The notes beneath the pieces are model-generated. The model worked only from the letters and a program-made list of their open reading frames with translations. It did no database searches and was not told the origin of the DNA. Positions 49,211 to 63,920 of a stretch of DNA of 64,000 bases are shown here, piece after piece. The translations under genes and the position numbers were made by a program. The stretch lies in the NCBI RefSeq assembly GCF_010500815.1, contig NZ_JAAAMG010000001.1:372001-436000 (forward strand), in the 5' to 3' direction. This DNA comes from Jiella pacifica (GTDB lineage Bacteria; Pseudomonadota; Alphaproteobacteria; Rhizobiales; Rhizobiaceae). The first letter of the stretch is position 1; each line of letters begins with the position of its first letter.

Positions 49211-50950
49211 TCAGACGTCCGTTTCACCGCCGGCCGGCACCGTGCCCGTCACCGGCGGAACCAGGAAGTCGAAGTCGCAACCCCTGTCCGCCTGGAGCAC
49301 GTGGTCGAGGAAAAGCTTCAGATAACCGCGGTCCGAGCCTTCGTGGTGCCGAACGAGGGTCTCGCTCCGCCGGCGCTCCAGCTCGACCGGCGGGACGTCG
49401 AGAGTGAGTGTGCGGCCGTCGACGTCGAGCTCGATCATGTCGCCGTCGCGGACCAGTGCAAGCGGGCCGCCGGCGGCGGCTTCCGGCGTGACATGCAGGA
49501 CGATCGTGCCCGATGCCGTGCCGCTCATCCTTGCGTCGGAGATCCGCACCATATCCTTGACGCCCTGGCGCGCGAGCTTGCGCGGGATCGGCATGTAGCC
49601 GGCCTCCGGCATCCCCGGTGCGCCCTTCGGCCCGGCATTCTGCAACACCAGGACGTCGTCGGCTTGGACGTCGAGATTCGGATCGTCGACCCGTGCCGCC
49701 ATGTCCTCGACCGACGAGAAGACGACGGCGCGGCCGCGATGCCGCAGCAGTTCCGGCGTCGCCGCCGACTGCTTCACGATCGCGCCGTCCGGCGCAAGAT
49801 TGCCACGCAGGACAGCCATCCCGCCCTGCGGATAGACGGGATCTGCCACCGTCGCGACGATCTCCTGTGGGAAGCCGGCGGGGGCCCGGTCGATTTCCTC
49901 GCCGAGGGTGCGCCCCGTCACCGTCAGGCAACCGAGATGGAGATGATCGCGCAGTTCGCGCAGGATCGTCGGCAGGCCGCCGGCGTCGTGGAGGTCCTCC
50001 ATGTAGTTTCGGCCGGAGGGCTTCAGGTCGACCAGCACCGGCACCTTGCGCCCGATCCGGTCGAAGGCGTCGAGATCGAGCTTCAAACCGACCCGTCCAG
50101 CCATGGCGGCGAGATGGACGATGCCGTTGGTCGATCCGCCGATGGCCAACAGGACGGTCAGCGCATTCTCGAAGGCCTTCGCCGTCATGATCTGAGACGG
50201 CACACGCCGGGCAGCGGCCATCTCTGCGGCCAGCGCCCCCGTCGCCTCCGCGATGCGGCGGCGGTCGGCCGAGACGGCGGGCGCCGTGGCGCCGCCGGGC
50301 AGCATCATGCCCAGCGCCTCGACAACCAACGCCATCGTCGAGGCCGTGCCCATCACGCCGCAGGTGCCGGCGCCCGGCACCAGCCGCTCGTTCACCTCCG
50401 CGATTTCGCCTTCATCGACTTCGCCGGCGCGGTAGCGCGCCCAGAAACGCCGGCAATCGGTGCAGGCGCCGACCCGCTCGCCGCGATGCGAGCCCGTCAA
50501 CATCGGCCCTGTCACCAGATGGATCGCCGGGAGCCCGGCGCTCGCGGCGCCCATCGACTGGGCCGGCACCGTCTTGTCGCAGCCGCCGATCAGGACGACG
50601 GCGTCCATGGGTTGGGCGCGGATCATCTCCTCGGTGTCGATCGACATCAGGTTGCGCAGATACATCGACGTCGGATGGGCGAAGGATTCGTGGATCGAGA
50701 TGGTCGGAAAGGGAACCGGCAGCGCGCCCGCCAAAAGGACGCCGCGTTTCGCCGCCTCGATCAGATCCGGCACGTTGGCGTGGCAGGCGTTGAAGCCGCT
50801 GCCGGTATCGACGATGCCAATGATCGGCCGGTCGAGGGCATCGTCGGAATACCCCATGCCCTTGATGAAGGCCTTTCGCAGGAACAGCGAAAAGCCCTCG
50901 TCGCCATAGCTGGTCAGCCCCTTGTTCAAGCCCTGTTTCGTGTCGCTCAT
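49211..50950 (-). CDS. IlvD/Edd family dehydratase, sugar-acid type
   Basis: A 579-residue Fe-S dehydratase. The three cluster cysteines are C56 in FNACHANV, C124 in GGCDKTVPA and C197 in GAGTCGVMGTAST. The extra stretch GACTDCRRFW (near residue 163) and the length match the sugar-acid subgroup (L-arabinonate/D-xylonate dehydratase type) better than IlvD. It converts an aldonic acid to a 2-keto-3-deoxy acid. It is convergent with the hydroxyacid oxidase gene, and a sugar-acid route could feed that enzyme with glycolate; that link is inference. Confidence 0.92.
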   Translation of the reverse strand: MSDTKQGLNKGLTSYGDEGFSLFLRKAFIKGMGYSDDALDRPIIGIVDTGSGFNACHANVPDLIEAAKRGVLLAGALPVPFPTISIHESFAHPTSMYLRNLMSIDTEEMIRAQPMDAVVLIGGCDKTVPAQSMGAASAGLPAIHLVTGPMLTGSHRGERVGACTDCRRFWARYRAGEVDEGEIAEVNERLVPGAGTCGVMGTASTMALVVEALGMMLPGGATAPAVSADRRRIAEATGALAAEMAAARRVPSQIMTAKAFENALTVLLAIGGSTNGIVHLAAMAGRVGLKLDLDAFDRIGRKVPVLVDLKPSGRNYMEDLHDAGGLPTILRELRDHLHLGCLTVTGRTLGEEIDRAPAGFPQEIVATVADPVYPQGGMAVLRGNLAPDGAIVKQSAATPELLRHRGRAVVFSSVEDMAARVDDPNLDVQADDVLVLQNAGPKGAPGMPEAGYMPIPRKLARQGVKDMVRISDARMSGTASGTIVLHVTPEAAAGGPLALVRDGDMIELDVDGRTLTLDVPPVELERRRSETLVRHHEGSDRGYLKLFLDHVLQADRGCDFDFLVPPVTGTVPAGGETDV

Positions 50951-51025: not shown

Positions 51026-52009
51026 TCATGATGCAAGAGTGGCCCACCGTTTCGCGATGGCACTGCGGTCATGGCCCTCGGCGAGGAGCACCGAGAGCAG
51101 CAGGCGTGCCTTCACGCCGCTCAGGGAGCCGGCGAGAACGGCGCCAGCCTCCACGAGGTCGTGACCGCCGCCTCCGCCGCCATAGACCGCGCGGGTCAGC
51201 CCCTCTGCACAGCGCGAACACACGATCACCGGAATGCCCCTCCGCGTCAGGCGTGAGATTGCCTCGACAAAAGCTGGAGGCGCGTTGCCCCGACCGAAGG
51301 CTTCCAGCACGATGCCGCGCGATCCCTGGTCCGCTGCCGCGTCCAGTATCCAGGGCGAGCAGCCCATGGTGAGCTTGAAAAGCTCCACCCGGCTCTCGAT
51401 CCGACCGATGCGGTGGGGCTCTTCGAGCGCCGGAAGCCGGGCGATGCGAATGTCGATTCCGTCGATGTCCCCGATCTTCCCGAAACCGGGGGAGCGGAAG
51501 GTGTCGACGCGTGACGTGTGCATCTTCGTGACGTCGCGCGCGGCATGAATCTCCTGCTCGAAGACGATCATGGCCCCGAGACCCCGCGCTTTCGGCGAGG
51601 CCGCGACCATGATCGCATCGCCGAGATTGCGCGGTCCGTCGGAGTCGATATCGCCTGCATGGCGCTGGGCGCCGGTAAAGACGATCGGCTTTTCGCTCTG
51701 GCGGAGGAGGTGGGCGAGGTAGCAGCTTTCCTCCATGGTGTCGGTTCCATGGGTCACCACCACACCATCGCGATCGACGTTCTCGAGGGCCGCGTTGATA
51801 CGCGTCGAGAGGGAAAAGGCGAGCGGCAGATCGATACCGAAGCTGCCGACCGTCGAGAACTCCACGACCTCGACCTCGATGCCGTCGAGCGGGGTACGAA
51901 GCTTGTCCTTCAGGGCCGCCCCGGAGACCGACGCCGAAACGCTGCTGCCGTCCGCCGTGCGGGTCGACGCGATCGTGCCGCCGGTCGCGAACAGGATAAT
52001 CTTCGCCAT
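51026..52009 (-). CDS. Asparaginase-family amidohydrolase (cytoplasmic)
   Basis: A 327-residue enzyme of the L-asparaginase/glutaminase fold. The two catalytic threonine motifs are visible as FATGGTIAST near residue 10 and THGTDTMEES near residue 88. There is no signal peptide, so it works in the cytoplasm. It starts 1 bp after the stop of the binding-protein paralogue and ends the long minus-strand run. In that context it may hydrolyse a half-amide such as a succinamate-like product rather than asparagine; this is inference. Confidence 0.9.
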   Translation of the reverse strand: MAKIILFATGGTIASTRTADGSSVSASVSGAALKDKLRTPLDGIEVEVVEFSTVGSFGIDLPLAFSLSTRINAALENVDRDGVVVTHGTDTMEESCYLAHLLRQSEKPIVFTGAQRHAGDIDSDGPRNLGDAIMVAASPKARGLGAMIVFEQEIHAARDVTKMHTSRVDTFRSPGFGKIGDIDGIDIRIARLPALEEPHRIGRIESRVELFKLTMGCSPWILDAAADQGSRGIVLEAFGRGNAPPAFVEAISRLTRRGIPVIVCSRCAEGLTRAVYGGGGGGHDLVEAGAVLAGSLSGVKARLLLSVLLAEGHDRSAIAKRWATLAS

Positions 52010-52010
52010 G

Positions 52011-53264
52011 TCAGCCCATTCTTCGACGTTGCGGGAGCGAATGCGATCGCGAGATGAAGTGGTTCCAGCGGCGCACGAGATAGTTGTGTTCGTCCATGGT
52101 GCTGTTCCACAGAGCGATGTGGGACGCCCGTTTCCAATACTGTCCGCCGGAGCGGATCGCGCCCTCGCGGATCGCCGGCCTCCCGCTCGGATCGGGCAGC
52201 GGACGGGCCGCCGGCTGCCCGTTGTACCAGTAGTTCCATTCATCCTCGTCGAGGAATTCGCGCACCCGGCCGTCGACCGACATGTAGTAGCCCTGCCGCG
52301 CGAGGATCGAACCCGGCCAGCCGGAAATGAACCAGTTGAGATAGGCATAGGCACGATCGAGGCGGTGTCCGCGCAGATGGTGAGCCAGGCAGAGGCCGCC
52401 GTGCCAGGCCCGATAGCCTTCCGCCGGGACGGCCTGACGAATGGTCCGCTGCCGGCTTTTCAAAGCCACGACGGACGGGGACCACATGGAGCTGATCCAC
52501 GTCTCGCCGCTTTCCATCAGCGCGGTCGCCTCTTCGGTCGTGCGCCAGAAGGTCGCAAGATGGCCGCTGTCTCGCAGCTCGGTGGCGAAATCGATCAGCG
52601 CGTCGATTTCCTCGACGCTCATATTGCCGATATCGTCGAATTCGATCCTGCCGGCGGAGCGCGCCGCGAGAGCGATGTCGAAGACGCCGATGGCCGGCTC
52701 GTCGACGATCGCGACACGGCCGAACCATCGCGGGTTCAAAAGCTCCGACCAGGAATGGACATCGGCATCCACGTCGATGCCGGAGGCGGTCTCGTTGATG
52801 CCGAAGGAGTCGAAATTGTGGGCCGTGGGAAGCATGGAGATCTTTCCCGTCGGCATCGAGGACAAGGATTGATCGTCCTGGACGTAGAGCCGGGACACGG
52901 GCGCGTCGCCGACGGCGACGGCCGCCGTGAGATCGATCCTCCCATGCTTGGTCAGGCCGTTGATCTCGGACCACAGGTCGATCCGCTCGATGTCGATCGC
53001 CTGAACCGCGCGCCAGTGCCAGACGATATCGAGATTATGGAAGCACTGGTCGTAGATATCGTAGGAATCCGGCTCGGTCGCGGCGATGCGCTGGGTCGTC
53101 TGGAAATCCCGCTGGATGAATGACAGCTCGAAGCCCAGTTCCGCCTGCGCCCGGGCCTGCAACTGCCGATAAGGCGTGATCTCGGTGCAAAGGATGCGCA
53201 AGGGGTCATCCTCGGCCCGGGATCCCGGCACTTGCGAAGCAGTGTGCATCAAGTGCTTGCCCAT
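52011..53264 (-). CDS. PotD-like solute-binding protein paralogue without signal peptide
   Basis: A 417-residue protein with the fold of spermidine/putrescine-type binding proteins. It shares segments with the neighbouring binding protein at 56914: AVPAEGYRAW here against AVPKEGYRAW there, GYYMSV against GYYSPS, YNGQP against YEGQP, and the same ending pattern of RWNHFI against RWDEFL. The N-terminus (MGKHLMHTASQVPGSRAEDD) is polar with no signal sequence. It starts 16 bp inside the CobW gene, so no longer N-terminus is likely. It may be cytoplasmic, or use an unusual export route. Confidence 0.82.
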   Translation of the reverse strand: MGKHLMHTASQVPGSRAEDDPLRILCTEITPYRQLQARAQAELGFELSFIQRDFQTTQRIAATEPDSYDIYDQCFHNLDIVWHWRAVQAIDIERIDLWSEINGLTKHGRIDLTAAVAVGDAPVSRLYVQDDQSLSSMPTGKISMLPTAHNFDSFGINETASGIDVDADVHSWSELLNPRWFGRVAIVDEPAIGVFDIALAARSAGRIEFDDIGNMSVEEIDALIDFATELRDSGHLATFWRTTEEATALMESGETWISSMWSPSVVALKSRQRTIRQAVPAEGYRAWHGGLCLAHHLRGHRLDRAYAYLNWFISGWPGSILARQGYYMSVDGRVREFLDEDEWNYWYNGQPAARPLPDPSGRPAIREGAIRSGGQYWKRASHIALWNSTMDEHNYLVRRWNHFISRSHSLPQRRRMG

Positions 53265-54388
53265 GCTTCGGCCTTAAAAGGCCTGACGGCGCCAACCGCC
53301 GGATCGTCGGCCATGACACGCGCGGCCAGCCGACTGAATACCTCGAACGACCTGCGAATGCGCTGCGGATCGATGCCCTCGGCGATGAAGACGATACGGG
53401 AGTGGCGCCGCTCGTCCGGCCAGCGTTTCATGTGGACCGGCGGGTGGACGAGGCGCTGGACGGCGTGAATCGCCACGGGATTGGCCTCGCCGGCGACGTT
53501 CAGGATGCCCTTCACCCGAAAGATGCGGTCGCCGTGTCGGTTGAGAAGCATGGTCAGCCAGATCCCGAACCCGGTCCAGTCCACATCGTCCTCGAAGACC
53601 ATGGAAAACGACCGCACGGCATGGGCCTCGTCTTCGTCATGGTGATGATGGTGATGGTGGCCGTGATGAGAGGCGTCATGAGAAGTTGCCGCCTCGTCGC
53701 GCGTCGGCGGGACCTCGGCCGTCCAGTCGTGGGCATCCACGCTCAGGGCCGACCGTGTGGTCAGCCGGCTTAGCAGCGTCGCGTCCGTGGCGGTGATGAT
53801 CGCGGCGGTGGGGTTCAGTTCGCCGAGCCGCATGTTGACCGCCATCGTGGTTCGTTCGTCGCACAGATCGGTCTTCGTCACGGCGATGATATCGGCCGCG
53901 GCAATCTGTCGAACGGCTTCCAGCCGGTGCGCGACGGCGCTCAGGCCATTCACCGCGTCGACCGTCGTGATCACCTTGCCGACGCAAAACTGGCTTTTCA
54001 GGACCGGATGGGCGCGAAGAGTCGACAGGGCAGGGTAGGGGTCCGCAAGGCCCGTGCTCTCGATGACGACACGGTCGAAGAACGGAATTTCGCCCCGCGC
54101 TCGCTGCGCGTGGAGAGACTGCAGGGCATCAGCGAGTTCGCCGCGCACGGTGCAGCAGACGCAGCCCGATTTCAGAAGGACGACATTGTCGTCGATCCGC
54201 TCCAGGAGGTGGTGGTCGAGGCCGACCTCGCCGAATTCGTTGATCAGGACGGCGGCGTTCGCCATGGACGCGTCCGTCAGAAGGCGTTGCAGCAGCGTCG
54301 TCTTACCCGAGCCCAGAAAGCCGGTCAGGAGATTGACGGGGGTCGGGCCCTGGCGGGCCTCGGCGGAATCGATGGCGTCGCCGTTCAC
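53249..54388 (-). CDS. CobW/P47K-type GTPase, metallochaperone
   Basis: A 379-residue G3E-family GTPase. Walker A is GFLGSGKTT near residue 23, the metal motif CxCC is SGCVCCT (C76, C78, C79), and the guanine-specificity motif is TKTD. A His-rich stretch of about 12 His (around residue 250, ending DEDEAH) suggests zinc or other metal binding. The CobW C-terminal domain ends near residue 370. The start is GTG 54388, overlapping the stop of the upstream small gene (GTGA). Such GTPases load metal into enzymes, here most likely the co-encoded metal hydrolase. Confidence 0.92.
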   Translation of the reverse strand: MNGDAIDSAEARQGPTPVNLLTGFLGSGKTTLLQRLLTDASMANAAVLINEFGEVGLDHHLLERIDDNVVLLKSGCVCCTVRGELADALQSLHAQRARGEIPFFDRVVIESTGLADPYPALSTLRAHPVLKSQFCVGKVITTVDAVNGLSAVAHRLEAVRQIAAADIIAVTKTDLCDERTTMAVNMRLGELNPTAAIITATDATLLSRLTTRSALSVDAHDWTAEVPPTRDEAATSHDASHHGHHHHHHHDEDEAHAVRSFSMVFEDDVDWTGFGIWLTMLLNRHGDRIFRVKGILNVAGEANPVAIHAVQRLVHPPVHMKRWPDERRHSRIVFIAEGIDPQRIRRSFEVFSRLAARVMADDPAVGAVRPFKAEAWAST

Positions 54389-54711
54389 GAGGCGCGCTCC
54401 AGGGCGGTCAGAAAGTCCTCGTCCAGCGGGTCGAAACCGGCCGAACTCATCCGGTCGGCTTCCGGCCACAGATGGGCGAGGGCCTCGAAGACCTGCGAAC
54501 GGCCCGTCGCATTGGTCAGGACATAGGAGGTACCCGTTGGAGCGCTCAGCTTGAGACGGCGAACGGCGAGGATCGCATTGGCGATCTTCCTGCGCCTCGC
54601 CGCCTCCCGGCGTCGCGAGACCCGATCGGTGTTGCGGGTATAGACGTCGGGGCGGGCAATGGCGCTGGACCAGTGGTCGTCGCATCCCAGGATGCCGCAG
54701 AGTGAACACAT
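54385..54711 (-). CDS. Cys-containing 108-aa protein paired with CobW
   Basis: A small soluble protein starting MCSLCGILGCDDHW, with C2, C5 and C10 and a nearby His as a possible metal site, followed by an Arg-rich helix and a C-terminal part with LTNATGRSQVFEALAHLW. It overlaps the CobW start, so the two are translationally coupled. I do not recognise a named family. A role in handing metal to or from CobW is plausible but inferred. Confidence 0.75.
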   Translation of the reverse strand: MCSLCGILGCDDHWSSAIARPDVYTRNTDRVSRRREAARRRKIANAILAVRRLKLSAPTGTSYVLTNATGRSQVFEALAHLWPEADRMSSAGFDPLDEDFLTALERAS

Positions 54712-54822
54712 GGGCCGGCTCGCTTCAAATCGAAAGGCCGGAGACCAGCTCCGACGATCAATGACTGGAAGAAGCGTGCCGTTTCCGGCTCGCTTCGTTG
54801 TTATCGTTCCGCGACGAGAAGC

Positions 54823-55701
54823 CTATTTCCGCGGGAAGCGCTTGGCAAAATCGTCGGCCATCTCGTCCATCGTGACGAACTTGACGCCCTCGTGGGATTT
54901 GATGTGCTTGATCAGGCGTTCCAGCATCAGAAGCACCTGCGGCCGCCCGGACACATCCGGATGGATTGTAATCGGGAACACCGCGTAGTCCATCTCGCGA
55001 TGGACCCAGTCGAACTGGTCTCGCCACATCTCCTCGATTTGCCGCGGATTGACGAAGCCGTGCGAGTTCGGCATCCCCTTGATGAACATCATCGGCGGCA
55101 GATCGTCGAGATACCAGTTTGCCGGAATCTCGATGAGATCGGTTTCCTCGCCGCGCACGAGCGGCTTCATCCAATCCTCGGCCTTCTTCTCGTAGTCGAT
55201 CTTCGTCCATGTATCGCCGACGCGCACATAATAGGGCGTGAAGTCGTTGTGCATCAGGGAGTGGTCGTACTTGATCCCGTTCTTCAGCAGGATCTCGTTG
55301 GTGATGTTGGAGAACTCCCACCACGGGGCGACGTAGCCGGTGGGCGCCTTGCCGGCGAGCTTGGTGATCAGCTCGAGGGACTTGTGCAGGACCGCCTCTT
55401 CCTGCTCCTCGCTCATCGCGATCGGGTTTTCGTGGCTGTAGCCATGAATGCCGACTTCATGGCCGCCATCGACGACGGCCCTCATCTGATCGGGAAAGGT
55501 CTCGACCGAATGGCCGGGGATGAACCAGCTCGTGCGAATGTCCTCGCGTTCGAACAGCTTGAGAAGGCGAGGGGTGCCGACCTCGCCGGCGAAAAGACCG
55601 CGCGAAATGTCGTCCGGCGAGTCCTCGCCGCCGTAAGATCCGAGCCAGCCTGCGACGGCATCGACGTCGATGCCGAAGCCCACGAGAATTTCCTTGGCCA
55701 T
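54823..55701 (-). CDS. Polysaccharide-deacetylase-fold hydrolase, imidase/PuuE-allantoinase-like
   Basis: A 292-residue cytoplasmic NodB-homology enzyme. The N-terminal Asp site is [18 protein letters not shown], the metal His motif is HGYSHEN near residue 85, then YVAPWWEFS. The length and the [17 protein letters not shown] pattern fit the imidase (cyclic imide hydrolase)/PuuE group, not secreted chitin or peptidoglycan deacetylases, and there is no signal peptide. The operon also encodes a CobW metallochaperone and an asparaginase-type amidase, which suits opening of a cyclic imide followed by half-amide hydrolysis. The substrate remains inferred. Confidence 0.85.
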
Positions 55702-55734
55702 TGAAGGTCCTCCATTGATGTCATGCGATTGGAA

Positions 55735-56823
55735 TTAGGAATGGGTCGGGAGTAGTGAAACGCGCTCGGGCGGGCAGTCGAGGTCGACGTGATCGCCGGC
55801 CGCCAGCGCCATCACATGCCGATCACGGCTGGCGGTCTCAACGTCGATGGCCTGACCGTTCGAAAGCGAGACCTTGAAGCGGCAGATGCTGCCGATCCTG
55901 TGTTTCGTGTCGATCGTTCCGTGGAGACGGTTGGGCACGCTTTGATCGCCGGTCCTCGCCCCGATACGAATGGCTTCGGCCGGAACCGCGGCAATGATGG
56001 CGCTGGTCCCGCGTAGATCCGAGGACGCATGCCCCGTGATCCGGCCGTGAGCGGTCAGAATCGAATGTCCGGCCGCGTCCTGCCTGAGATCGCGGCCCTC
56101 GAAGATGGCGTTGGCGCCGATGAAGCGGGCGACGAATTCGGTCATGGGTGAGCCGTAGATTTCCTCGGGCCTGCCGATCTGCTCGACCTGACCGTTGTTC
56201 ATCACGATCACCCGGTCCGACAGCCCCAGTGCCTCGTCCTGGGCGTGGGTGACGAAGACGAAGGTTATGCCCAGCTCGCGCTGCAAGAGCTTCAGTTCGT
56301 TCTGAATGACCCGCCGCAGATTGGCGTCGAGGGCGCCGAGCGGCTCGTCGAGGAGCAGGATCTGCGGTTCGACGACGAGACCTCTCGCCAGGGCGATGCG
56401 CTGGCGCTGGCCACCGGACAGGCGGTCGGCCTTTCGATCGGCAAATTGCGACAGGTCGAACATGTCGAGGATACGGTCGACCTTCGCATCGCGCTCCTTG
56501 CGCGCGACGCCCTTGACGTCGAGACCGAAGCCGATGTTGTCGCGCACGTTCAAATGCGGAAACAACGCGTAGTTCTGGAAGATCATCGAGGTCGGGCGCT
56601 TCTCGGCCGGGATTGCCGAGACGTTCTTTCCCTTGATGATGATGTCGCCATGGGTGATCGCCTCGAAGCCCGCCACCATGCGCAAAGTCGTGGATTTTCC
56701 GCAGCCGGATGGACCGACGAAGGCGACGAACTCGCCTGGGGAGACCTGCAGGTCGAACTCGCTGACGGCGACGGTTCCGTCCGGATAGGTCTTGCCGACC
56801 CGGATCAGTTCGAGATCGTGCAT
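55735..56823 (-). CDS. ABC transporter ATP-binding protein, PotA type (second ATPase)
   Basis: A 362-residue ATPase with Walker A GPSGCGKST near residue 38, Q-loop MIFQNYALFPHL, signature LSGGQRQRI, Walker B ILLLDEPLGALDA and a C-terminal TOBE domain (about 270-360). It lies between the binding protein and the deacetylase-fold gene. A second ATPase of the same class is at the head of the run, while only one permease pair is present. Confidence 0.93.
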   Translation of the reverse strand: MHDLELIRVGKTYPDGTVAVSEFDLQVSPGEFVAFVGPSGCGKSTTLRMVAGFEAITHGDIIIKGKNVSAIPAEKRPTSMIFQNYALFPHLNVRDNIGFGLDVKGVARKERDAKVDRILDMFDLSQFADRKADRLSGGQRQRIALARGLVVEPQILLLDEPLGALDANLRRVIQNELKLLQRELGITFVFVTHAQDEALGLSDRVIVMNNGQVEQIGRPEEIYGSPMTEFVARFIGANAIFEGRDLRQDAAGHSILTAHGRITGHASSDLRGTSAIIAAVPAEAIRIGARTGDQSVPNRLHGTIDTKHRIGSICRFKVSLSNGQAIDVETASRDRHVMALAAGDHVDLDCPPERVSLLPTHS

Positions 56824-56857
56824 CAGATTTCCATTTCTATCTGCTCGCAGGCCTTAC

Positions 56858-56890
56858 GCGGGGTCGCGATCGGTCCGACCGCAACCCCGC
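56858..56890 (-). promoter_or_regulatory. Stem-loop between binding-protein and second ATPase genes
   Basis: GCGGGGT (56858-56864) pairs with ACCCCGC (56884-56890) and an inner CGGTC/GACCG helix completes a strong hairpin in the 90-bp gap after the binding-protein stop. No T-run follows in the operon direction. Confidence 0.55.
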
Positions 56891-56913
56891 CTGTCGGGCC
56901 CTGCCGCGCGACG

Positions 56914-58143
56914 TCAGGCGTTGAGGAATTCGTCCCAGCGCTGGATCAGGTGATCGTACTCGGCCGGCCACTGATGCCAGTAGGCGACGTTGGAGGCGCG
57001 CTCGGACAAGGAGCCGCCGTCACGTAGATCACCGGGCTTGATGCCGCGCTCGGGTTCGCCGGTCCAAGGCTGCCCCTCGTACCAGAAGGCGTATTTCTCC
57101 GGCGCCATCGCCTCCTTGATATTCGTGCTCGGCGAGTAATAGCCCTGCTCGGTGACCGCGATCGCCGGCGGGCCGGAGAGCCAGAAATTGGCATAGGCCT
57201 TGACCGCTGCCGCGTTGGGAGAATTGGCGAGAAGCGAAGGCCCGATGGCCCATGCGCGGTAGCCTTCCTTCGGCACCGCGTACTGGGCCGGGCGCCCCTG
57301 GGCCTTGACCGCCATGACGGCGGGCTGCCAGGCGTCGGAGACGACCATCTCGCCGGACGCCATCAGGTTGACCAGCTCGCCGAAGTCGCCCCAGAGAGCT
57401 CTGAACTGACCGTTCTTCTTCTTGGAGATCAGGAACTTCGTCGCCTCGTCGATCTCTTCGGTGGTCGGACTTCCCGGGTTCTTGGCTTCGAGTTCGCCGA
57501 GCGAATTGAGGGCCAGGATCGCCTGACCGATCGCGATCAGCGGATCGACGTTCAAGCCGGACTTGCCGCGCCACTTGTCGTCGAACAAGGCCGTCCAGGT
57601 GTTGGCTTCTTCCGCCGACAGAACGTCGGGATTATAGCCGATCGAGTCATAATTGTAGACTGCGGGCACCATGTAGAGCTCGGTCTGGTCCTCGCCCGTC
57701 CAGATCTGCCCGGTAATCTGAGCTTCGCGCGGCCACTGGTCGCTCGGGGTCGTGAACGTGTCGCGGATATTGGCCCAGTTCGGAATTTCCGACGTGGGGA
57801 TCGGTGTCACATTGTTGGTCTGGATGATCGCCGGCAGCCGCTCCGCGATGATCTCCCAGCAGTCATAATCGCCCGAGCCGGACAGAATCCGGGTCTGGCT
57901 GTCCGGGAAGGTCGCGGCGGTCCCGGAGACCGAGCCGACGCCTGATTCCTTCTTGAACATCTCCAGGATGCGATCCTGGACCGTGGTCGACAGACCCGTC
58001 GTGCGCAACTGTTGATCGGCGAGCTCCTGGGCAAAAGCGGCCTGCGAGCGCAGCCAGGGCGACATGCCACCCATTGCGAAGGCCGCGGCACCGGCTCCTC
58101 CCTTCAGAAGGGCTCGTCTGGAAAACCTGCTGTTTTGTACCAT
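56914..58143 (-). CDS. PotD-like ABC transporter substrate-binding protein
   Basis: A 409-residue periplasmic binding protein for polyamine- or opine-like ligands. The N-terminus is a twin-arginine signal (FSRRALLKGGAGAAAFAMGG...AFA). The mature part contains PAVYNYDSIGYNPD and AVPKEGYRAW, and ends RWDEFL. It lies between the two SDR genes and the second ATPase gene. A signal-less paralogue is encoded at 52011. Confidence 0.92.
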   Translation of the reverse strand: MVQNSRFSRRALLKGGAGAAAFAMGGMSPWLRSQAAFAQELADQQLRTTGLSTTVQDRILEMFKKESGVGSVSGTAATFPDSQTRILSGSGDYDCWEIIAERLPAIIQTNNVTPIPTSEIPNWANIRDTFTTPSDQWPREAQITGQIWTGEDQTELYMVPAVYNYDSIGYNPDVLSAEEANTWTALFDDKWRGKSGLNVDPLIAIGQAILALNSLGELEAKNPGSPTTEEIDEATKFLISKKKNGQFRALWGDFGELVNLMASGEMVVSDAWQPAVMAVKAQGRPAQYAVPKEGYRAWAIGPSLLANSPNAAAVKAYANFWLSGPPAIAVTEQGYYSPSTNIKEAMAPEKYAFWYEGQPWTGEPERGIKPGDLRDGGSLSERASNVAYWHQWPAEYDHLIQRWDEFLNA

Positions 58144-58177
58144 GATGTGTTTCCTTCGTTCCGAGGTTGGATGGAGT

Positions 58178-58951
58178 TCAGTACCGGCCCACGAGAAGGC
58201 CTCCGTCGACCGCCAGCACCTGACCGGTCAGGTAGCGTGCAGCGGGCGAAGCCAGGAACTGGATGACGTCCGCGATATCTTCAGGCTCGCCGAGGCGCTT
58301 CATCGGGATGTGGGCGGCGGCCTGCTCCGCCCCTTCGGGCCCGAGAGAGTTTTCTCTTGAGAGAAGCTGAGCCGTGCGGATGTAGCCGGGAGCAACGCCG
58401 TTCACGCGAATGCCATCTCCCGCCAGCTCCACGGCCAGGCCACGTACGAGGCCGACGACGCCCGCTTTCGCGGACGAATAATGGACGTGCTCGTCCCAGC
58501 CATAGGCGACGCCCATGATCGAGGAGAGGCAGACGATCGAGCCCGAACCCTGCCGACGCATGGCCGGCAGCGCAGGACGGATGACGCGGAGCATGCCCTT
58601 AAGGTCGATATCGAAGGTCTCGTCCCACTTTTCGTCCGTCAGGCCGTCGAGCGGAACGCGATGTGCGATCCCGGCATTGGCGACGATCACATCGAGGCGC
58701 CCCTTGCGATCGAGGATGTCGGCGACGAGGGCATCGGCCTCCGGCGTCGAGCGCACGTCGAGGCGGATGAATTCGGCCGAGCCGCCGGCAGCCGAAATCG
58801 CCTCCACGGTCTGCCGGCCCTCGTCCTCCAGAATGTCGGTGACGACCACATGATCGCCCGCCGCGGCGAAGGTCTCGCATGCGGCGCGGCCGATGCCGAT
58901 GCCGCCTCCGGTCACCAGGACGACGCGTCGGGACTTTGCATTCTCGTTCAT
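58178..58951 (-). CDS. SDR oxidoreductase (FabG-like)
   Basis: A 257-residue classical short-chain dehydrogenase: cofactor motif TGGGIGIGRAA, VANAGIAH (variant NNAG), Ser in SSIMGV and catalytic YSSAK. The C-terminal motif is VDGGLLVGRY. The start is ATG 58951; the longer frame upstream overlaps the next SDR gene and is a shadow. Its neighbour at 58969 is a related SDR; both lie inside the transporter operon and probably oxidise the imported compound or its product. Confidence 0.9.
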   Translation of the reverse strand: MNENAKSRRVVLVTGGGIGIGRAACETFAAAGDHVVVTDILEDEGRQTVEAISAAGGSAEFIRLDVRSTPEADALVADILDRKGRLDVIVANAGIAHRVPLDGLTDEKWDETFDIDLKGMLRVIRPALPAMRRQGSGSIVCLSSIMGVAYGWDEHVHYSSAKAGVVGLVRGLAVELAGDGIRVNGVAPGYIRTAQLLSRENSLGPEGAEQAAAHIPMKRLGEPEDIADVIQFLASPAARYLTGQVLAVDGGLLVGRY

Positions 58952-58968
58952 CGGGATCTTTCCGTTCG

Positions 58969-59718
58969 TCAAAGCATCACATCCCCGGAATTGGGCCCCA
59001 GCGTCTGGCCGACGAAGAGCGCGCCGTCGGGCGAGGCAAGAAAGGCCACGCAACCCGCGACCTCGTCGGTCTCGCCGAAGCGACCGAGCGGCAGCTCAGC
59101 AGCCTTGGCGCTCTTCCAGTCATCGGAAAGCGCTTCGACGAGGGGCGTGTTGATCGGGCCGGGGGCGATGGCGTTGACGCGCACGCCTTTCTTGCTCACC
59201 TCGCGGGCCAGCGACTTGGTCATGGCGATGATCGCCCCCTTGGCGCCGGAATAATGGACGAGTTCGGCTCCGCCGATCTGGCCGAGCTGAGAGGCGACGT
59301 TGACGATCACACCGGCGCCGGCCTCGAGCATCGAGGGAAGGACGGCCTGCATGGTCAGGAAGGTGCCGCGCACGTGCACCGCGAACATGCGCTCGAACTC
59401 GGCGAGCGGGATCTCGGTGAAGGGAGCCTGATGCCCATGACCGGCATTGTTCACGAGGAGGCGGATCGGGCCGAACGTCTCGACGGCCCGCGCCGTCATC
59501 GCGGCGACTTCCGCTTGATCCGACACGTCTCCGGGACAGGCAACAGCCTTGCCGCCCCTTGCGAGAATGGCATCGACGACGGCGTCGCAAGCTGGTCTCG
59601 AGAGATCGTTGACGGCGACGCGGTAGCCGTCAGCGGCCAGACGCATCGCGATGGCCTTGCCGATACCGGAGCCTGCTCCGGTAACGAAAGCTGTCCTGGG
59701 TCCCATGCCGCCGCTCAT
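58969..59718 (-). CDS. SDR oxidoreductase (second, FabG-like)
   Basis: A 249-residue classical short-chain dehydrogenase with TGAGSGIGKAIA, NNAGHGHQ, Ser in NVASQLG and catalytic YSGAK. Unusually the C-terminal region lacks the common DGG and ends GPNSGDVML. It overlaps the permease gene stop by 4 bp and is 17 bp before the other SDR gene, so all are co-transcribed. Confidence 0.9.
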   Translation of the reverse strand: MSGGMGPRTAFVTGAGSGIGKAIAMRLAADGYRVAVNDLSRPACDAVVDAILARGGKAVACPGDVSDQAEVAAMTARAVETFGPIRLLVNNAGHGHQAPFTEIPLAEFERMFAVHVRGTFLTMQAVLPSMLEAGAGVIVNVASQLGQIGGAELVHYSGAKGAIIAMTKSLAREVSKKGVRVNAIAPGPINTPLVEALSDDWKSAKAAELPLGRFGETDEVAGCVAFLASPDGALFVGQTLGPNSGDVML

Positions 59719-60557
59719 GTTTCCTGCCCCTTGTATTGCTGATTGTTGCGGGCGACGGAGCGCATCATCAGGAGGCCGTAGATCGCCAGAAGGGTGAAGG
59801 AGAACACGGTCGTCAGAACCCCGAAGGCGAAGACGTTCGGATAGATCTCCACCGAGAAGGTGCCGTAGATCGACAAGGGCAGGGTAAGCCGCGGGCCGGA
59901 CGTGAAGAGCGTGCGGGAGAACTCGTCATATGACAGCGTGAACGAGAACAGCATCGCCGACAGGACACCGGGGAAGATCATCGGGAAGGTCACGCGGCGA
60001 AAGGTTTCGGCCGGCGAGACGCCGAGCGAGAGCGAGGCTTCTTCGACCGACCGGTCAAAGCGATTGAAGATCGCCAGCATGACGAGGAAGGCGAAGGGGA
60101 AGGTGTAGACCACGTGGAGGACGAAGGACGTGCTCCACCACGCCCGATCGATGCCGAGCATGTTGGACAGAAGTGCCATGCCGAGGCCGACCAGAACGCC
60201 GGGCACGATCATGCCGAGAACGAAGAGATAGAAGATCGGCCCGGACCCGGCGAAGCGCGTGCGGAACGCCTGGGCGGCCATCACGCCGAGAACCGTGGAC
60301 ACGATCGTCGTCATCACCGCCAGAACGAGCGAGCGGATCAGGCTTTCGCCCACCGGAAGCTGGGAGACGCGCGAGCCCGAGATCTGGCCGAAGAGATGCT
60401 GATACCAGTAGGTCGACCATTCGACGATCGGGAATTGCGGTCCACCCGTCGGTCCCTGGAAGGACAGGATCGCCATGACGATCATCGGCCCGTAGAGAAA
60501 GAGGAGGAAAAGGCCGAGATAGACCGCAAGGGCGGGCTTCAGAAGACGCGACTCCAT
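59715..60557 (-). CDS. ABC transporter permease, PotC type
   Basis: A 280-residue inner-membrane permease with about six helices and the EAA loop EEASLSLGVSPAETFRRVTF before PMIFPG. It pairs with the permease encoded just upstream, whose stop is 3 bp away. Confidence 0.93.
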   Translation of the reverse strand: MESRLLKPALAVYLGLFLLFLYGPMIVMAILSFQGPTGGPQFPIVEWSTYWYQHLFGQISGSRVSQLPVGESLIRSLVLAVMTTIVSTVLGVMAAQAFRTRFAGSGPIFYLFVLGMIVPGVLVGLGMALLSNMLGIDRAWWSTSFVLHVVYTFPFAFLVMLAIFNRFDRSVEEASLSLGVSPAETFRRVTFPMIFPGVLSAMLFSFTLSYDEFSRTLFTSGPRLTLPLSIYGTFSVEIYPNVFAFGVLTTVFSFTLLAIYGLLMMRSVARNNQQYKGQET

Positions 60558-60560
60558 GGC

Positions 60561-61487
60561 TCACATCTCCTTTCGGATGTTCACGATACGCAGGAGCGTG
60601 GTGATGACGATGGCGATGATGATGGTGAGGATCACGCCGGCGACCGATGCGAAGGCCCATTTCAGCGAGCCGACCTGGCTGACGATGATGTTGCCGAGCA
60701 TGTTCACCTTGCGGCCGGACAGGGCGGCGGCGGTGGCGAACTCACCCAGCACCATGACCGAGACGAAGACCGCGCCGACGACGACGCCGGGCAGCGACAA
60801 AGGCAGGATGATCCGCCAGAAGATCTTGCCGAACCCGGCACCCAGATCCCGCGCCGCCTCGATGATCGAGTGATCGATGCGCGCCAGCATGAAGGTGATG
60901 GGACCGACCATGAAGACGCAGTAGATCTGCGCCATGCCGATGATGACCGCGAGCTCCGAGAAGAGCAGGGAGGTGAACGGCGTTTCGATCAGGCCGAGAT
61001 TGATCAGGATCGAGTTGATCGCGCCCTCGGTTCCCAACGTCGGCCGCCAGGCGATGACGCGGATGAGGAAGGACGTCCAGAACGGGATGATGCAGACGAC
61101 GAGCAGCGCCGTCTGCAAGGTCACGTTCCGGATCATCAGCCCGATGAGGAGCGCGACCGGATAGCCGATCACCAGGGTTGCGGCGAGCACGACGATCCAG
61201 ATGAACAAGGTCGTGACGATCGAATCCAGATAGGTCGGGCTGGTCAGGAACCGGACCCAACTGTCGACGGTCAGCGTCGGCTCGATGGCGAAGGTGGTCT
61301 GCGTCCAGAACGAGACATAGACGACCATGATCATCGGCAGGACCATGAACAGCGTCATCCAAACGATGCCTGGCGCGGCGAGCTTCAGCGCCTGAATTTC
61401 GTCGCGCCTGGCTCGCTTCCTCGCGGGGCTGAGCGCGTCTTCTCGCTTGATCGCAGCGCCGTTGGACTGGTTGGCAAGATCCATCAA
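60561..61487 (-). CDS. ABC transporter permease, PotB type
   Basis: A 308-residue inner-membrane permease with a polar N-terminal tail and six helices. The EAA loop is IEAARDLGAGFGKIFWRIILPLSLPG. It overlaps the end of the ATPase gene by 4 bp. Confidence 0.93.
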   Translation of the reverse strand: MMDLANQSNGAAIKREDALSPARKRARRDEIQALKLAAPGIVWMTLFMVLPMIMVVYVSFWTQTTFAIEPTLTVDSWVRFLTSPTYLDSIVTTLFIWIVVLAATLVIGYPVALLIGLMIRNVTLQTALLVVCIIPFWTSFLIRVIAWRPTLGTEGAINSILINLGLIETPFTSLLFSELAVIIGMAQIYCVFMVGPITFMLARIDHSIIEAARDLGAGFGKIFWRIILPLSLPGVVVGAVFVSVMVLGEFATAAALSGRKVNMLGNIIVSQVGSLKWAFASVAGVILTIIIAIVITTLLRIVNIRKEM

Positions 61488-62557
61488 TAGGCTCTTTCGG
61501 GAAAGGCGATGAGAAGCTCGGGGTCGAAATCGAGCGCGTAGACCTGATCGGGCTCGTAGCGTGGCGGGCGGGGCTCGCTCAGATGAACCAGCGACTGGAT
61601 CAGCGAACCGTCTGCGGCGCGGAAGAAGGAGAGCATGGACGGCCCCTTGAATTCGGCCGTTACGAAACGCGCCGAAATCCCGTCGCTCGCCTCGTCCCTG
61701 CGCGGCTTCACGGCGATGCCGTCATAGGGAAGCGCGACGGACATCGGCTGACCATTGCGCGCGCCGGTTCCCGTCGGCAGCGCCAGCGCGCCGACCGGCG
61801 AGCGCAGGCGGCCGTCACTGACGGTCCCGGAGATGATGTTGAAGGCGTTCAGGTGCCGGGCGACTGTCGCGCTTGCCGGCGAGCGGAAGAGGTCGTCCGG
61901 GGGCGCGATCTGCGCGATCGCCCCATCGGCGAGGACGGCGACCTGATCGCCCATGAGAAGCGCTTCGGTCTCGCTCCCGGTTACATGCAGGAACGAGATG
62001 CCGAGCCGTTGGCGGATCGCACGGAGCTCGTCGCACATGCGCTCGCGCAGATTGGCGTCCAGGGCGCCGAGCGGCTCGTCGAGGAGCACGATCTTGGGCT
62101 CGGCGATCAGCGTGCGGGCCAGTGCGACGCGTTGCTTCTGCCCGCCCGAGATCGCTCCCACCGCGCGCCGCCCGAGCCCCTCGAGGCCGACGAGACCGAG
62201 GATCGTCTGGACGCGCTCGCGCACTTCGGCCTTGTCGCGGACCGGCCGCTCCTCGCGATAGCGCAGGCCGAAGGCGACGTTGTCCTCGACGGAGAGGTGC
62301 GGAAAGAGAGCGAAATTCTGGAAGACGAAACCGACGCCGCGCTTGTGCGGCGGGACGCCGTCGAGCCGCGCGCCGCGCAGGGAGATCGTTCCGTTATCAG
62401 GCTCTTCGAAGCCTGCAATGATGCGCAGAAGCGTCGTCTTTCCGCTTCCGCTCGCACCCAGAAGCGAGACGTAACTGTCATCCGGCACGACCAGATCGAG
62501 CCCGTCGATGGCCGATGCCTGACCGTAATGTCGCGAGACCGACTTCAGAGTGAGCAA
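61484..62557 (-). CDS. ABC transporter ATP-binding protein, PotA type (first ATPase)
   Basis: A 357-residue ATPase: Walker A GASGSGKTT near residue 36, Q-loop FVFQNFALFPHL, signature ISGGQKQRV, Walker B IVLLDEPLGALDA and a C-terminal TOBE region. After Walker B the usual His-loop reads HVTGSETEAL instead of the common VTHDQEEA, with the switch His shifted. The start is set at TTG 62557 because GGAGG lies 5 nt upstream and the ATPase domain begins there; the frame upstream is not family-like. First gene of the long minus-strand run. Confidence 0.92.
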   Translation of the reverse strand: MLTLKSVSRHYGQASAIDGLDLVVPDDSYVSLLGASGSGKTTLLRIIAGFEEPDNGTISLRGARLDGVPPHKRGVGFVFQNFALFPHLSVEDNVAFGLRYREERPVRDKAEVRERVQTILGLVGLEGLGRRAVGAISGGQKQRVALARTLIAEPKIVLLDEPLGALDANLRERMCDELRAIRQRLGISFLHVTGSETEALLMGDQVAVLADGAIAQIAPPDDLFRSPASATVARHLNAFNIISGTVSDGRLRSPVGALALPTGTGARNGQPMSVALPYDGIAVKPRRDEASDGISARFVTAEFKGPSMLSFFRAADGSLIQSLVHLSEPRPPRYEPDQVYALDFDPELLIAFPERAY

Positions 62558-62900: not shown

Positions 62901-63920
62901 ATGACCGATCAATCTTCGGCGATGCGGGAGCCGCTTTTCCAAGCGGCGGCGACCACGCTCAGGCACAGTATCCAGACAGGCCTTCTCAAGCCCGGGCTCG
63001 TCCTTCTGGAGGGGCCGATCTCGGACAGGCTTCATATCAGTCGAACCTCCGTCAAGCGCGCCTTGCAGCTCCTCGAGGACGAGTCCCTGATCCACCGGTT
63101 CGACGGTCGCGGTTTTCTTGTCGGCACGCCCGACGATACCGTCAGTCCGATCCGCGAGGATCTGCCGGAACTCGAATTGACCGGCGCCGAAGTCGGCGCC
63201 AAGGCGCGGCCCGGCTCGCAGCGCATCCAGGACACGGTGGAGCGCGATATCCTGGCCTGTCTCGTTTTCGGCCAGTATCGGATGACGGAGACCGATCTTG
63301 CCGACCACTTCGATGTCAGCCGCACGGTCGCGCGCGACATTCTGGGCCGGCTTCAAGAGCGCGGCCTTGTCTGGAAAACGTCGACGTCGCGATGGGTCAG
63401 CGCCTTGCTGACCGCCCGTTCGATCAAGGACAAATACGAGCTGCGCGGCATTCTCGAAGTCGCGGCGCTCCGCTCAGCCGCGGCCCGTATCGACGTCTCC
63501 GCTCTGGACCAGCTTCAACGAAAGATGGAGCGGACCGAAAACGGCAAGAGGCTCGTCAATGCCGAGGAATGGTTCGAGCTGGTCAACGCTTTCGTCGATC
63601 TTGCCATCCTCTCCACACCCAACGTCGAATTGCGGGCCCTCGTCTCGCGCAACTTCCGCATGATCAGCGCCTCCCAGCAGGTGCTGTTCAGCGTCGGGCT
63701 TTCGGGTGATCGCCATTCGATCCGGGAGCTGCGCATGGTCGTCGAGCTCCTGAGGGTCGGGGCGATCCATGGCGCGGCCGAAATGCTGAAGAGTCATCTG
63801 GCGAAATCGCGCGAACGAATGATCGCCCAGTTGAAGATCGTCTCCGTCCTGCCCGAGCCCGATCATCTCGCCCCTTATCTGACGCCCGTGGAGCCCGGCC
63901 AGGCCGTCACCAGCCCCTAG
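62901..63920 (+). CDS. GntR family regulator with two winged-helix domains and FCD domain
   Basis: A 339-residue regulator. Two GntR-type winged helices are visible in tandem: residues about 13-75 (ISDRLHISRTSVKRALQLLE) and about 105-165 (ADHFDVSRTVARDILGRLQE), followed by a C-terminal helical FCD domain (about 175-325) for ligand binding. Usual FCD regulators have one winged helix and about 230 residues. It is divergent from the transporter run and is its most likely regulator. Confidence 0.88.
   Translation: MTDQSSAMREPLFQAAATTLRHSIQTGLLKPGLVLLEGPISDRLHISRTSVKRALQLLEDESLIHRFDGRGFLVGTPDDTVSPIREDLPELELTGAEVGAKARPGSQRIQDTVERDILACLVFGQYRMTETDLADHFDVSRTVARDILGRLQERGLVWKTSTSRWVSALLTARSIKDKYELRGILEVAALRSAAARIDVSALDQLQRKMERTENGKRLVNAEEWFELVNAFVDLAILSTPNVELRALVSRNFRMISASQQVLFSVGLSGDRHSIRELRMVVELLRVGAIHGAAEMLKSHLAKSRERMIAQLKIVSVLPEPDHLAPYLTPVEPGQAVTSP

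Follow-up and report, generated by a model that had tools for sequence, protein, structure and literature searches.

Gene Content of the Locus

The present analysis concerns a run of minus-strand genes of the alphaproteobacterium Jiella pacifica, situated in a stretch of 64,000 nucleotides (NCBI RefSeq assembly GCF_010500815.1, contig NZ_JAAAMG010000001.1, positions 372,001 to 436,000 of the forward strand), hereafter called the window; a function in the use of cyclic imides is proposed for it below. An earlier reading of the window (the original prediction) had placed a PotABCD-like importer, a metal hydrolase, a CobW protein with a small Cys-rich partner, an asparaginase-fold amidase, and two short-chain dehydrogenases/reductases (SDRs) in one run with overlaps or short gaps. 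All the named genes were recovered from the list of open reading frames (ORFs) and by family searches, on the minus strand from 62557 to 51026, with spacings across the whole run between a 16-bp overlap and a 111-bp gap. The gene ends given below are those of the ORF list, and the starts of CobW, the second solute-binding protein (SBP2), the asparaginase, and SDR2 were checked on the DNA.

62901 to 63920, plus strand: divergent GntR-family regulator, 339 aa; two GntR-type helix-turn-helix stretches (PF00392) and an FCD domain (PF07729)
61484 to 62557, minus strand: PotA-type ABC (ATP-binding cassette) ATPase 1 (PotA1); PF00005; TTG start assumed at 62557
60561 to 61487, minus strand: PotB-type permease; PF00528
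59715 to 60557, minus strand: PotC-type permease; PF00528
58969 to 59718, minus strand: SDR1, NAD(P)-dependent oxidoreductase; PF13561/PF00106; YSGAK catalytic motif
58178 to 58951, minus strand: SDR2, NAD(P)-dependent oxidoreductase; PF13561/PF00106; YSSAK catalytic motif; ATG at 58951
56914 to 58143, minus strand: exported solute-binding protein PotD1; PF13416; Tat-like leader SRRALLKGG
55735 to 56823, minus strand: PotA-type ABC ATPase 2 (PotA2); PF00005, PF08402
54823 to 55701, minus strand: HpPgdA-type hydrolase, 292 aa, proposed cyclic imidase; homology to HP0310 (3qbu), conserved site, and position in the tree
54385 to 54711, minus strand: small Cys protein (CYS), 108 aa; M1-C2-x-x-C5-G...W14
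53249 to 54388, minus strand: CobW/COG0523 GTPase; PF02492, PF07683; GCVCC motif; His-rich loop; GTG start at 54388
52011 to 53264, minus strand: SBP2, PotD/PotF-fold protein without a recognizable signal peptide; PF13416; AlphaFold model
51026 to 52009, minus strand: asparaginase-fold amidase, 327 aa; PF00710, PF17763; ATG at 52009; starts MAKIILFATGG, no leader

PotA1 and PotB overlap by 4 bp, PotB and PotC are 3 bp apart, PotC overlaps SDR1 by 4 bp, and gaps of 17, 34, 90, 33, and 111 bp follow between SDR1 and SDR2, SDR2 and PotD1, PotD1 and PotA2, PotA2 and the hydrolase, and the hydrolase and CYS, respectively. CYS and CobW overlap by 4 bp (GTGA, the GTG start of CobW lying on the CYS stop codon), CobW and SBP2 by 16 bp, and a single base pair separates SBP2 from the asparaginase gene. 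The gene run is far beyond chance, as its order is seen again in Alphaproteobacteria, and Pseudomonas, Pantoea, Klebsiella, and Paraburkholderia share a variant in which the transporter is of the major facilitator superfamily (MFS); it is real and wider than the original prediction had it.

The Hydrolase and Its Family

The 292-aa hydrolase aligns with HP0310 of Helicobacter pylori without a gap, 225 of the 292 residues (77%) being identical, and HP0310 (3qbu/4ly4, 540 bits) is its best relative of solved structure. The residues binding the metal and the water (D12, D14, H86, H90, and H247, with D14, H86, and H90 as metal ligands) and those that occlude the site (Y23, W127, W128, W196, and L201), their roles being taken from the description of HP0310 (PMC3084791), are kept in the window and in 93 of the 93 relatives with at least 57% identity (L127, at 56.9%, was counted in the other group of 18). 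Full-length homology to HP0310, the Asp/His/His metal site, and the occluded small-molecule site place the protein in the HpPgdA-type family, a subfamily tied to cyclic imidases in PMC9304392 and PMC8478523 (these and the other papers given by PMC accession are cited from excerpts). In a FastTree phylogeny of 49 sequences, the window protein and HP0310 fall in a clade of 28 taxa (local support 0.95) nested in one of 31 taxa (0.92), and the 33–45% identical relatives, the PuuE-like L007 and L008, and the CE4-like L009 stay outside the HpPgdA-type clade; the inner nodes of this tree are poorly resolved (support of 0.03 for the most recent common ancestor of the window protein and HP0310), and one gene copy entered it twice (L127, L161).

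The original prediction had called the enzyme imidase/PuuE-like. The first half of this label is supported by the clade linked to cyclic imidases; as to the second half, the PuuE allantoinase model (TIGR03212) yielded 74.2 bits, far below its cut-off of 424.6. The prediction had also named clustering with true deacetylases as the result that would speak against it: the CE4-like protein lies outside the clade, although the nearest solved protein, HP0310, carries the name of peptidoglycan deacetylase, a name questioned by its own structure paper (PMC3084791).

Although Pfam assigns the hydrolase to PF01522 (Polysacc_deac_1), its NCBIfam deacetylase scores are far below the cut-offs. Neither a secretion signal nor a membrane anchor, expected of a classical CE4 enzyme, was seen by reading the ORF, which starts with MAKEILV; the classical CE4 motif 1, TF(/Y)DD with the Thr of the catalytic triad, is absent as well, the window reading VGFGIDVD, and the same Thr is missing in HP0310 (PMC6957412). 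According to PMC3084791, HP0310 has a closed site, a signal peptide is missing in HP0310 and its close homologs, and a small-molecule ligand is more likely; the protein was inactive on GlcNAc (N-acetylglucosamine), chitotriose, N-acetyl dipeptides, and allantoin, and on the N-acetylated polyamines putrescine, spermidine, and cadaverine. The hydrolase is proposed to be a cyclic imidase by analogy with HxnM of Aspergillus nidulans and the imidase of Pseudomonas putida, both discussed below.

Conservation of the Gene Neighborhood

The related loci come from a contig scan of genomes, from which the best 80 of at least 580 confirmed stretches were taken; being 79–86% identical, they form a close and non-independent sample. 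CobW is present in 78 of them, the exceptions being L058, where the contig ends, and L051, and CYS in 79 by hidden Markov model (94 of the 96 loci scanned in all, L013 and L051 lacking it). By tblastn, counting any copy in the locus, SDR2 was found in 69, SDR1 in 67, SBP2 in 69, and GntR in 65 of the 80 loci; under a stricter neighborhood rule, both SDRs are present in 67 loci, and SBP2 accompanies them in 66 of these 67 and in none of the remaining 13.

The transporter is of the Pot-ABC type in 33 loci, of the MFS type in another 33, and of other types in 14, and the two SDRs are present in every MFS-type locus. An amidase homolog occurs in 72 of the 80 loci (AS-family only in 63, asparaginase-fold only in 6, both in 3) and is missing from 8. 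Thus, the transporter and amidase families are swapped while the SDR–imidase core mostly stays. These counts uphold the view that the amidase and CobW are parts of the set, and an SDR, an imidase, and an amidase, i.e., the combination known from the fungal Hxn system, occur together in the window.

Beyond the close relatives, 16 annotated plasmid regions and one extension were read, and one unannotated record was searched by tblastn. A Rhodococcus plasmid (R138), from another phylum, has the order asparaginase–imidase–MFS–SDR–SDR without CYS or CobW. A dihydropyrimidinase gene is added to the cluster in Paracoccus AK26 (family checked) and Skermanella rosea. In Variovorax (L138), an imidase and an AS amidase were found with no SDR, CYS, or CobW match in the fetched DNA, and the DNA fetched for the haloarchaeal Halorussus (L137) has the hydrolase with a sole SDR match at 35%. 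A scan of viral contigs revealed no relative.

The Small Cys Protein and CobW

CYS matched no Pfam or NCBIfam family at E 0.01, and a Foldseek search of its model (pLDDT 81.9, pTM 0.72, with the first ten residues poorly predicted at a mean pLDDT of 50) against the PDB gave no match at E 0.001 or better. In an alignment of 60 sequences, from which L022 and L025 (divergent, without the G6 motif) and L058 (truncated) were left out, M1, C2, C5, G6, W14, G70, D94, and L96 are invariant. The adjoining GTPase carries the hallmarks of COG0523/CobW proteins, namely the P-loop GTPase domain, the CXCC motif, and the CobW_C domain (PF02492 and PF07683 over the cut-off), and its motif, GCVCC in the window, reads GCxCC in 78 of 78 homologs; with the model of the true cobalamin CobW (TIGR02475), it scored 129.4 bits vs. 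a cut-off of 332.1. The His-rich loop of the window protein was rejected as a family feature, at least 5 His in 20 residues occurring in 13 of the 78 homologs.

The linkage of CYS was followed in 190 genomes drawn evenly from the class of the window, with imidase matches counted at E 1e-40 or better. HpPgdA-type imidases (at least 57% identity) were represented by 11 copies in 10 genomes, more distant relatives of the hydrolase (33–45%) by 14 copies, and CYS by 12 matches in 11 genomes. CYS adjoins CobW in 12 of 12 cases and an imidase in 11 of 12, and all 11 imidase copies are accompanied by CYS, one of them (G081:C62) lying on the opposite strand from it; the twelfth CYS (G169, L022/L160) adjoins a 30%-identical PuuE-like hydrolase. 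The 10 genomes shared by CYS and imidase correspond to a hypergeometric P of 8e-16, the genomes being related and not independent. Among 398 genomes of the phylum, CYS was detected in 10, beside CobW in all 10 and with an imidase in the fetched DNA in 6; the other 4 lie beside the SDRs and SBP2 of an MFS-type cluster, where the flank of 1.5 kb ends short of any imidase. Overall, CYS and CobW share the strand in 93 of 93 loci, the commonest arrangements being a 4-bp overlap in 29 and an 8-bp overlap in 11 of them (longest ORFs), and both chromosomes and plasmids carry the pair together with the hydrolase.

For most COG0523 proteins, neither the metal nor the target is evident (PMC2770081). For the pair described here, it seems marginally probable that CYS and CobW are a dedicated maturation pair for the hydrolase. 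A comparable case is Nha3, the COG0523 activator of the Fe-type nitrile hydratase, where linkage likewise assigns such a GTPase to a single catabolic metalloenzyme, although the enzyme and the metal are different and the excerpts of PMC2770081 mention no small Cys partner.

Alternatively, CobW and CYS could be a general zinc-economy pair that acts on other proteins and happens to lie beside the imidase. Such a role would be in line with the Zur regulation of some COG0523 subfamilies and their link to zinc homeostasis (PMC2770081), with the distance of about 3 kb between CYS-CobW and the imidase in MFS-type clusters, and with two Paraburkholderia plasmids where the pair stands beside an allantoinase/dihydroorotase-family gene with no imidase within 7–9 kb (the two regions are near-copies and count as one event). 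Nevertheless, the constant company of CobW and the nearly constant company of the imidase in genomes sampled irrespective of CYS, and the retention of the pair with the hydrolase on both types of replicon, make this alternative unlikely, with the reservation that the genomes are not independent.

Importer, SBP2, and Amidase

The importer belongs to the ABC class by its Pfam domains, the same class as the polyamine importers PotABCD and PotFGHI, but it differs from them in its scores, in having two ATPases, and in the leaderless SBP2. In the three subunits scanned, the NCBIfam scores stay below the cut-offs for PotABCD (PotA1, 270 vs. 355.6 bits; PotB, PRK09497, 169.8 vs. 348; PotD1, 25.2 vs. 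582). The run contains two PotA-type ATPases and two SBP-fold proteins; the two different ATPase genes stand against a single permease pair, and both recur in relatives with the ABC-type cluster.

The AlphaFold model of SBP2 (pLDDT 83.1, pTM 0.85) has the PotD/PotF fold, with PotD as the best match (TMt 0.78) and a TMt of up to 0.80 in the comparison with PotD and PotF. An export signal, as expected of the solute-binding protein of an ABC importer, was not found when leader motifs and the spacing from the upstream stop were compared. In Pseudomonas, SBP2 starts directly at the fold (MTIT-LRVLGTS), 16 of 59 homologs have the upstream stop fewer than 20 codons ahead of the fold, and an RR-type leader motif occurs in 1 of the 59 vs. 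33 of 36 PotD1-homologous ORFs; the upstream frame of 7 of the 59 holds a moderately hydrophobic stretch, and the leader test is weaker for those. A hydropathy threshold of 1.6 was discarded as a leader test, since the exported PotD1 itself has 1.25.

Because it has no recognizable signal peptide, SBP2 is probably not part of the importer, a point missed in the original prediction. Among the 80 close loci, SBP2 goes with the SDRs and not with the importer, and the MFS-type clusters retain it, but the link to the SDRs is not strict: Rhodococcus L132 and Skermanella L136 have SDRs and no SBP2 match in the fetched DNA. SBP2 could possibly be a cytoplasmic ligand carrier, a sensor, or an enzyme.

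The amidase belongs to the asparaginase superfamily, with both domains (PF00710 and PF17763), the TGGT, GTDT, and RDVTK motifs, which we take to be the catalytic Thr, Thr-Asp, and Lys stretches, and matches to PDB asparaginases. With the type II L-asparaginase model (TIGR00520), it scored 196.9 bits vs. a cut-off of 314.3.

Flanking Genes and Related Clusters

The divergent GntR gene starts 343 bp upstream of PotA1; the double helix-turn-helix before its FCD domain is an unusual DNA-binding layout, and genes of similar length occupy this position in L010, L011, and L012. The genes beyond GntR appear housekeeping-like (radC-, map-, sfsA-, and phaC-like, by reading the translations, with no family search), and the gene run therefore looks like an inserted island. 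On the other side, an IlvD/EDD-family dehydratase gene (49211 to 50950) follows the operon after 75 bp on the minus strand. It was dropped as an operon member or a later pathway step, as no homolog was found in the flanking DNA fetched for the 80 relatives; a flavin mononucleotide (FMN)-dependent hydroxyacid dehydrogenase beyond IlvD was likewise set aside as a later step, no search for it in the 80 relatives having been made. A pattern scan returned 2 promoter-like sites (1.6 expected) and 10 terminator-like sites (7.9 expected).

Several observations concern the surroundings of the imidase in other genomes. In L013 (4982 to 11941) and L029 (13272 to 14900), imidase genes lie beside an HpaB-type flavin monooxygenase, and L013 additionally has flavin reductase and amidohydrolase genes; these clusters perhaps represent a route for aromatic N-heterocycles that ends with the same imide step. 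In several lineages, a cluster of biotin-carboxylase and PxpA-PxpB-PxpC-like genes (LamB/YcsF, allophanate hydrolase subunit) borders that of the imidase, its orientation varying (L010, 1 to 3404; L011, 1 to 2555; also L031, L033, L037, L040, L069, L141, and L155), and PxpB/C-like genes lie within the flank in 28 of the 80 loci, an adjacency that suggests that the use of lactams and that of imides are functionally linked. On the Klebsiella pneumoniae plasmid pSKLX33221-2 (L012, 76917 to 97792), typed as conjugative IncF, an MFS-type imide cluster is followed by insertion sequences.

Comparison with Known Systems

The closest parallel in enzyme content is the nicotinate pathway of Aspergillus nidulans, where HxnW, HxnM, and HxnN form, like the window, a set of an SDR, an HpPgdA-type imidase, and an amidase. 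HxnW converts 5,6-dihydroxypiperidin-2-one into 3-hydroxypiperidine-2,6-dione, HxnM is proposed to open the latter, and HxnN then deamidates the half-amide (PMC9304392). In PMC8478523, HxnM is classed under CE4_HpPgdA_like and HxnW under adh_short_C2 (PF13561), to which SDR1 and SDR2 also belong, and the divergent arrangement of hxnM and hxnW is described as conserved across many fungi. As stated in PMC9304392, HxnM is 64.2% identical to the cyclic imide hydrolase of P. putida YZ-26, and HP0310 is its closest known structural homolog. In contrast to the window, the Hxn system is eukaryotic and employs an AS-family amidase instead of an asparaginase fold, and the excerpts of PMC9304392 and PMC8478523 mention no CobW, CYS, SBP2, or Pot-type importer. 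The structural match of HxnW, 3awd, is the 18th PDB hit of SDR2 and falls outside the best 60 of SDR1; the search for an SDR substrate by PDB similarity gave no lead.

The P. putida YZ-26 imidase (AAY98498) is itself a cyclic imide hydrolase, assigned to the same family in PMC9304392 and PMC8478523, the excerpts of which give no description of the genes around it. In H. pylori, HP0310 is accompanied by HP0312, a COG0523 member (PMC2770081), by HP0309, annotated as an N-carbamoyl-D-amino acid amidohydrolase, and by the hypothetical HP0311 (PMC3866246, Table 5). HP0310 differs in its annotation as cell-wall modifying. By locus numbers, HP0309–HP0312 read as amidase-like, imidase, unknown, and CobW. 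We know of no SDRs or importer beside HP0310, although no search for them was made. The HP0309–HP0312 genes look like a module similar to that of the window, with HP0311 only a candidate equivalent of CYS; the name of HP0309 would also suit a hydantoin-type pathway. Part of this gene context was glimpsed in 2011, when polyamine-importer neighbors of HP0310 homologs were remarked upon, with HP0312 as the anchor in a supplementary figure (PMC3084791).

Proposed Pathway and Alternatives

The gene content, the conserved linkage, the family membership, and the conserved active site are observed; each reaction, the transfer of metal, and the role of SBP2 are inferred from them. On this basis, it is likely that the run is a nitrogen-scavenging island serving to break down either a cyclic imide or a lactam from which one is formed, the substrate itself being a prediction. 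The Pot-type ABC importer would bring in a lactam or hydroxylactam, and the two SDRs might oxidize ring hydroxyl or hemiaminal carbons to yield the cyclic imide. The HpPgdA-type metallohydrolase would then open the imide to a half-amide (a dicarboxylic acid monoamide), from which ammonia and a dicarboxylate would be set free by the asparaginase-fold amidase. Together with CYS as its partner, the CobW GTPase may assist the hydrolase in acquiring or retaining its metal under metal limitation. A plausible example would be the conversion of 5-hydroxy-2-pyrrolidone via succinimide and succinamate to succinate and NH3.

Several points weigh against this proposal. HP0310 was reported to be active on acetylated xylan, chitin, chitosan, and p-nitrophenyl acetate (pNP-acetate) and was called a peptidoglycan deacetylase (PMC3688963); a deletion mutant is reported, as cited in PMC6957412, to differ in acetylation and in its sensitivity to lysozyme. 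The same paper regards Cod4, a relative from A. fumigatus, as a chitin deacetylase with activity, and calls its paralog Cod7 and HP0310 inactive (PMC6957412). The reactions of HxnW and HxnM were deduced from metabolites in deletion mutants and not from purified enzymes (PMC9304392), and the link to the P. putida imidase rests on the two citing papers and not on a sequence alignment. Since SDR1 and SDR2 match generic FabG-like families only (NCBIfam and PDB), their oxidation step is an analogy. As for the maturation of the hydrolase, HP0310 produced in E. coli held a metal ion in the crystal (PMC3084791), and the fetched DNA of Rhodococcus L132, Variovorax L138, Halorussus L137, L013, and L051 contains the hydrolase but neither CYS nor CobW; therefore, CYS and CobW are not strictly needed by it.

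The use of a cyclic ureide (a hydantoin, dihydropyrimidine, or allantoin-like substrate) instead of a true imide is an improbable alternative. The fold relation to PuuE, the dihydropyrimidinase genes of the Paracoccus and Skermanella clusters, the allantoinase/dihydroorotase-family neighbor of CYS-CobW in Paraburkholderia, and the annotation of HP0309 (PMC3866246), an enzyme that would follow a hydantoinase, all agree with it. Still, the PuuE score is far under the cut-off, HP0310 does not act on allantoin (PMC3084791), an asparaginase-fold or AS amidase suits a half-amide better than an N-carbamoyl acid, and no N-carbamoyl amidohydrolase annotation was noticed in the plasmid regions read, where annotation is coarse.

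Least of all do we expect the hydrolase to be a polysaccharide or peptidoglycan deacetylase in an operon recycling N-acetylated polyamines or cell-wall fragments through the Pot-like importer, for although its Pfam family, the name and the glycan and ester activities of HP0310 (PMC3688963), and the Pot-type importer genes adjoining it, as they do HP0310 homologs (PMC3084791), would suit such a role, HP0310 was inactive on N-acetyl polyamines, GlcNAc, and chitotriose (PMC3084791), the occluding residues are kept throughout in a leaderless protein, an MFS transporter replaces the importer in 33 of the 80 loci with both SDRs still in place, and the amidase and dihydropyrimidinase neighbors would be left unexplained. 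Polyamine deacetylation in particular was set aside on account of the inactivity of HP0310 on these compounds and the exchangeability of the importer for an MFS transporter.

Returning to imide catabolism, we tentatively consider a broader version of it, whose chances appear somewhat short of even. CYS-CobW would be a dedicated metallocenter-maturation pair for cyclic-amide hydrolases of two unrelated folds, the CE4-type imidase and the allantoinase/dihydroorotase-type enzyme of Paraburkholderia; HP0310–HP0312 of H. pylori would be such a module, its "PgdA" being an imidase that feeds ammonia to the cell; and SBP2 would act in the pathway as a cytoplasmic carrier, a sensor, or an enzyme.

As a whole, the original interpretation is partly supported. 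It missed that the SDRs would fit an imide-forming oxidation, by analogy with HxnW, and that the cluster is widespread. Its statement that no described operon is known to have exactly this set agrees with literature searches in one open-licence library, judged mostly from listings, where no description was found of a bacterial imidase operon with CYS-CobW, an amidase, SDRs, and a leaderless SBP; however, the set is widespread and not unique to this genome. The combination of imidase and amidase is known chemistry, and it is the bacterial operon with CYS and a leaderless SBP that was not found described.

Implications

Should the proposal hold, genes annotated as "polysaccharide deacetylase" in Pseudomonas, rhizobia, Pantoea, and other bacteria would belong to imide catabolism, and the disputed substrate of HP0310, which is treated as an immune-evasion factor, would become directly testable with simple assays. 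A probable client enzyme and a small protein partner would thereby be named for one group of COG0523 proteins, and imidases already paired with amidases and SDRs would be available to enzyme users.

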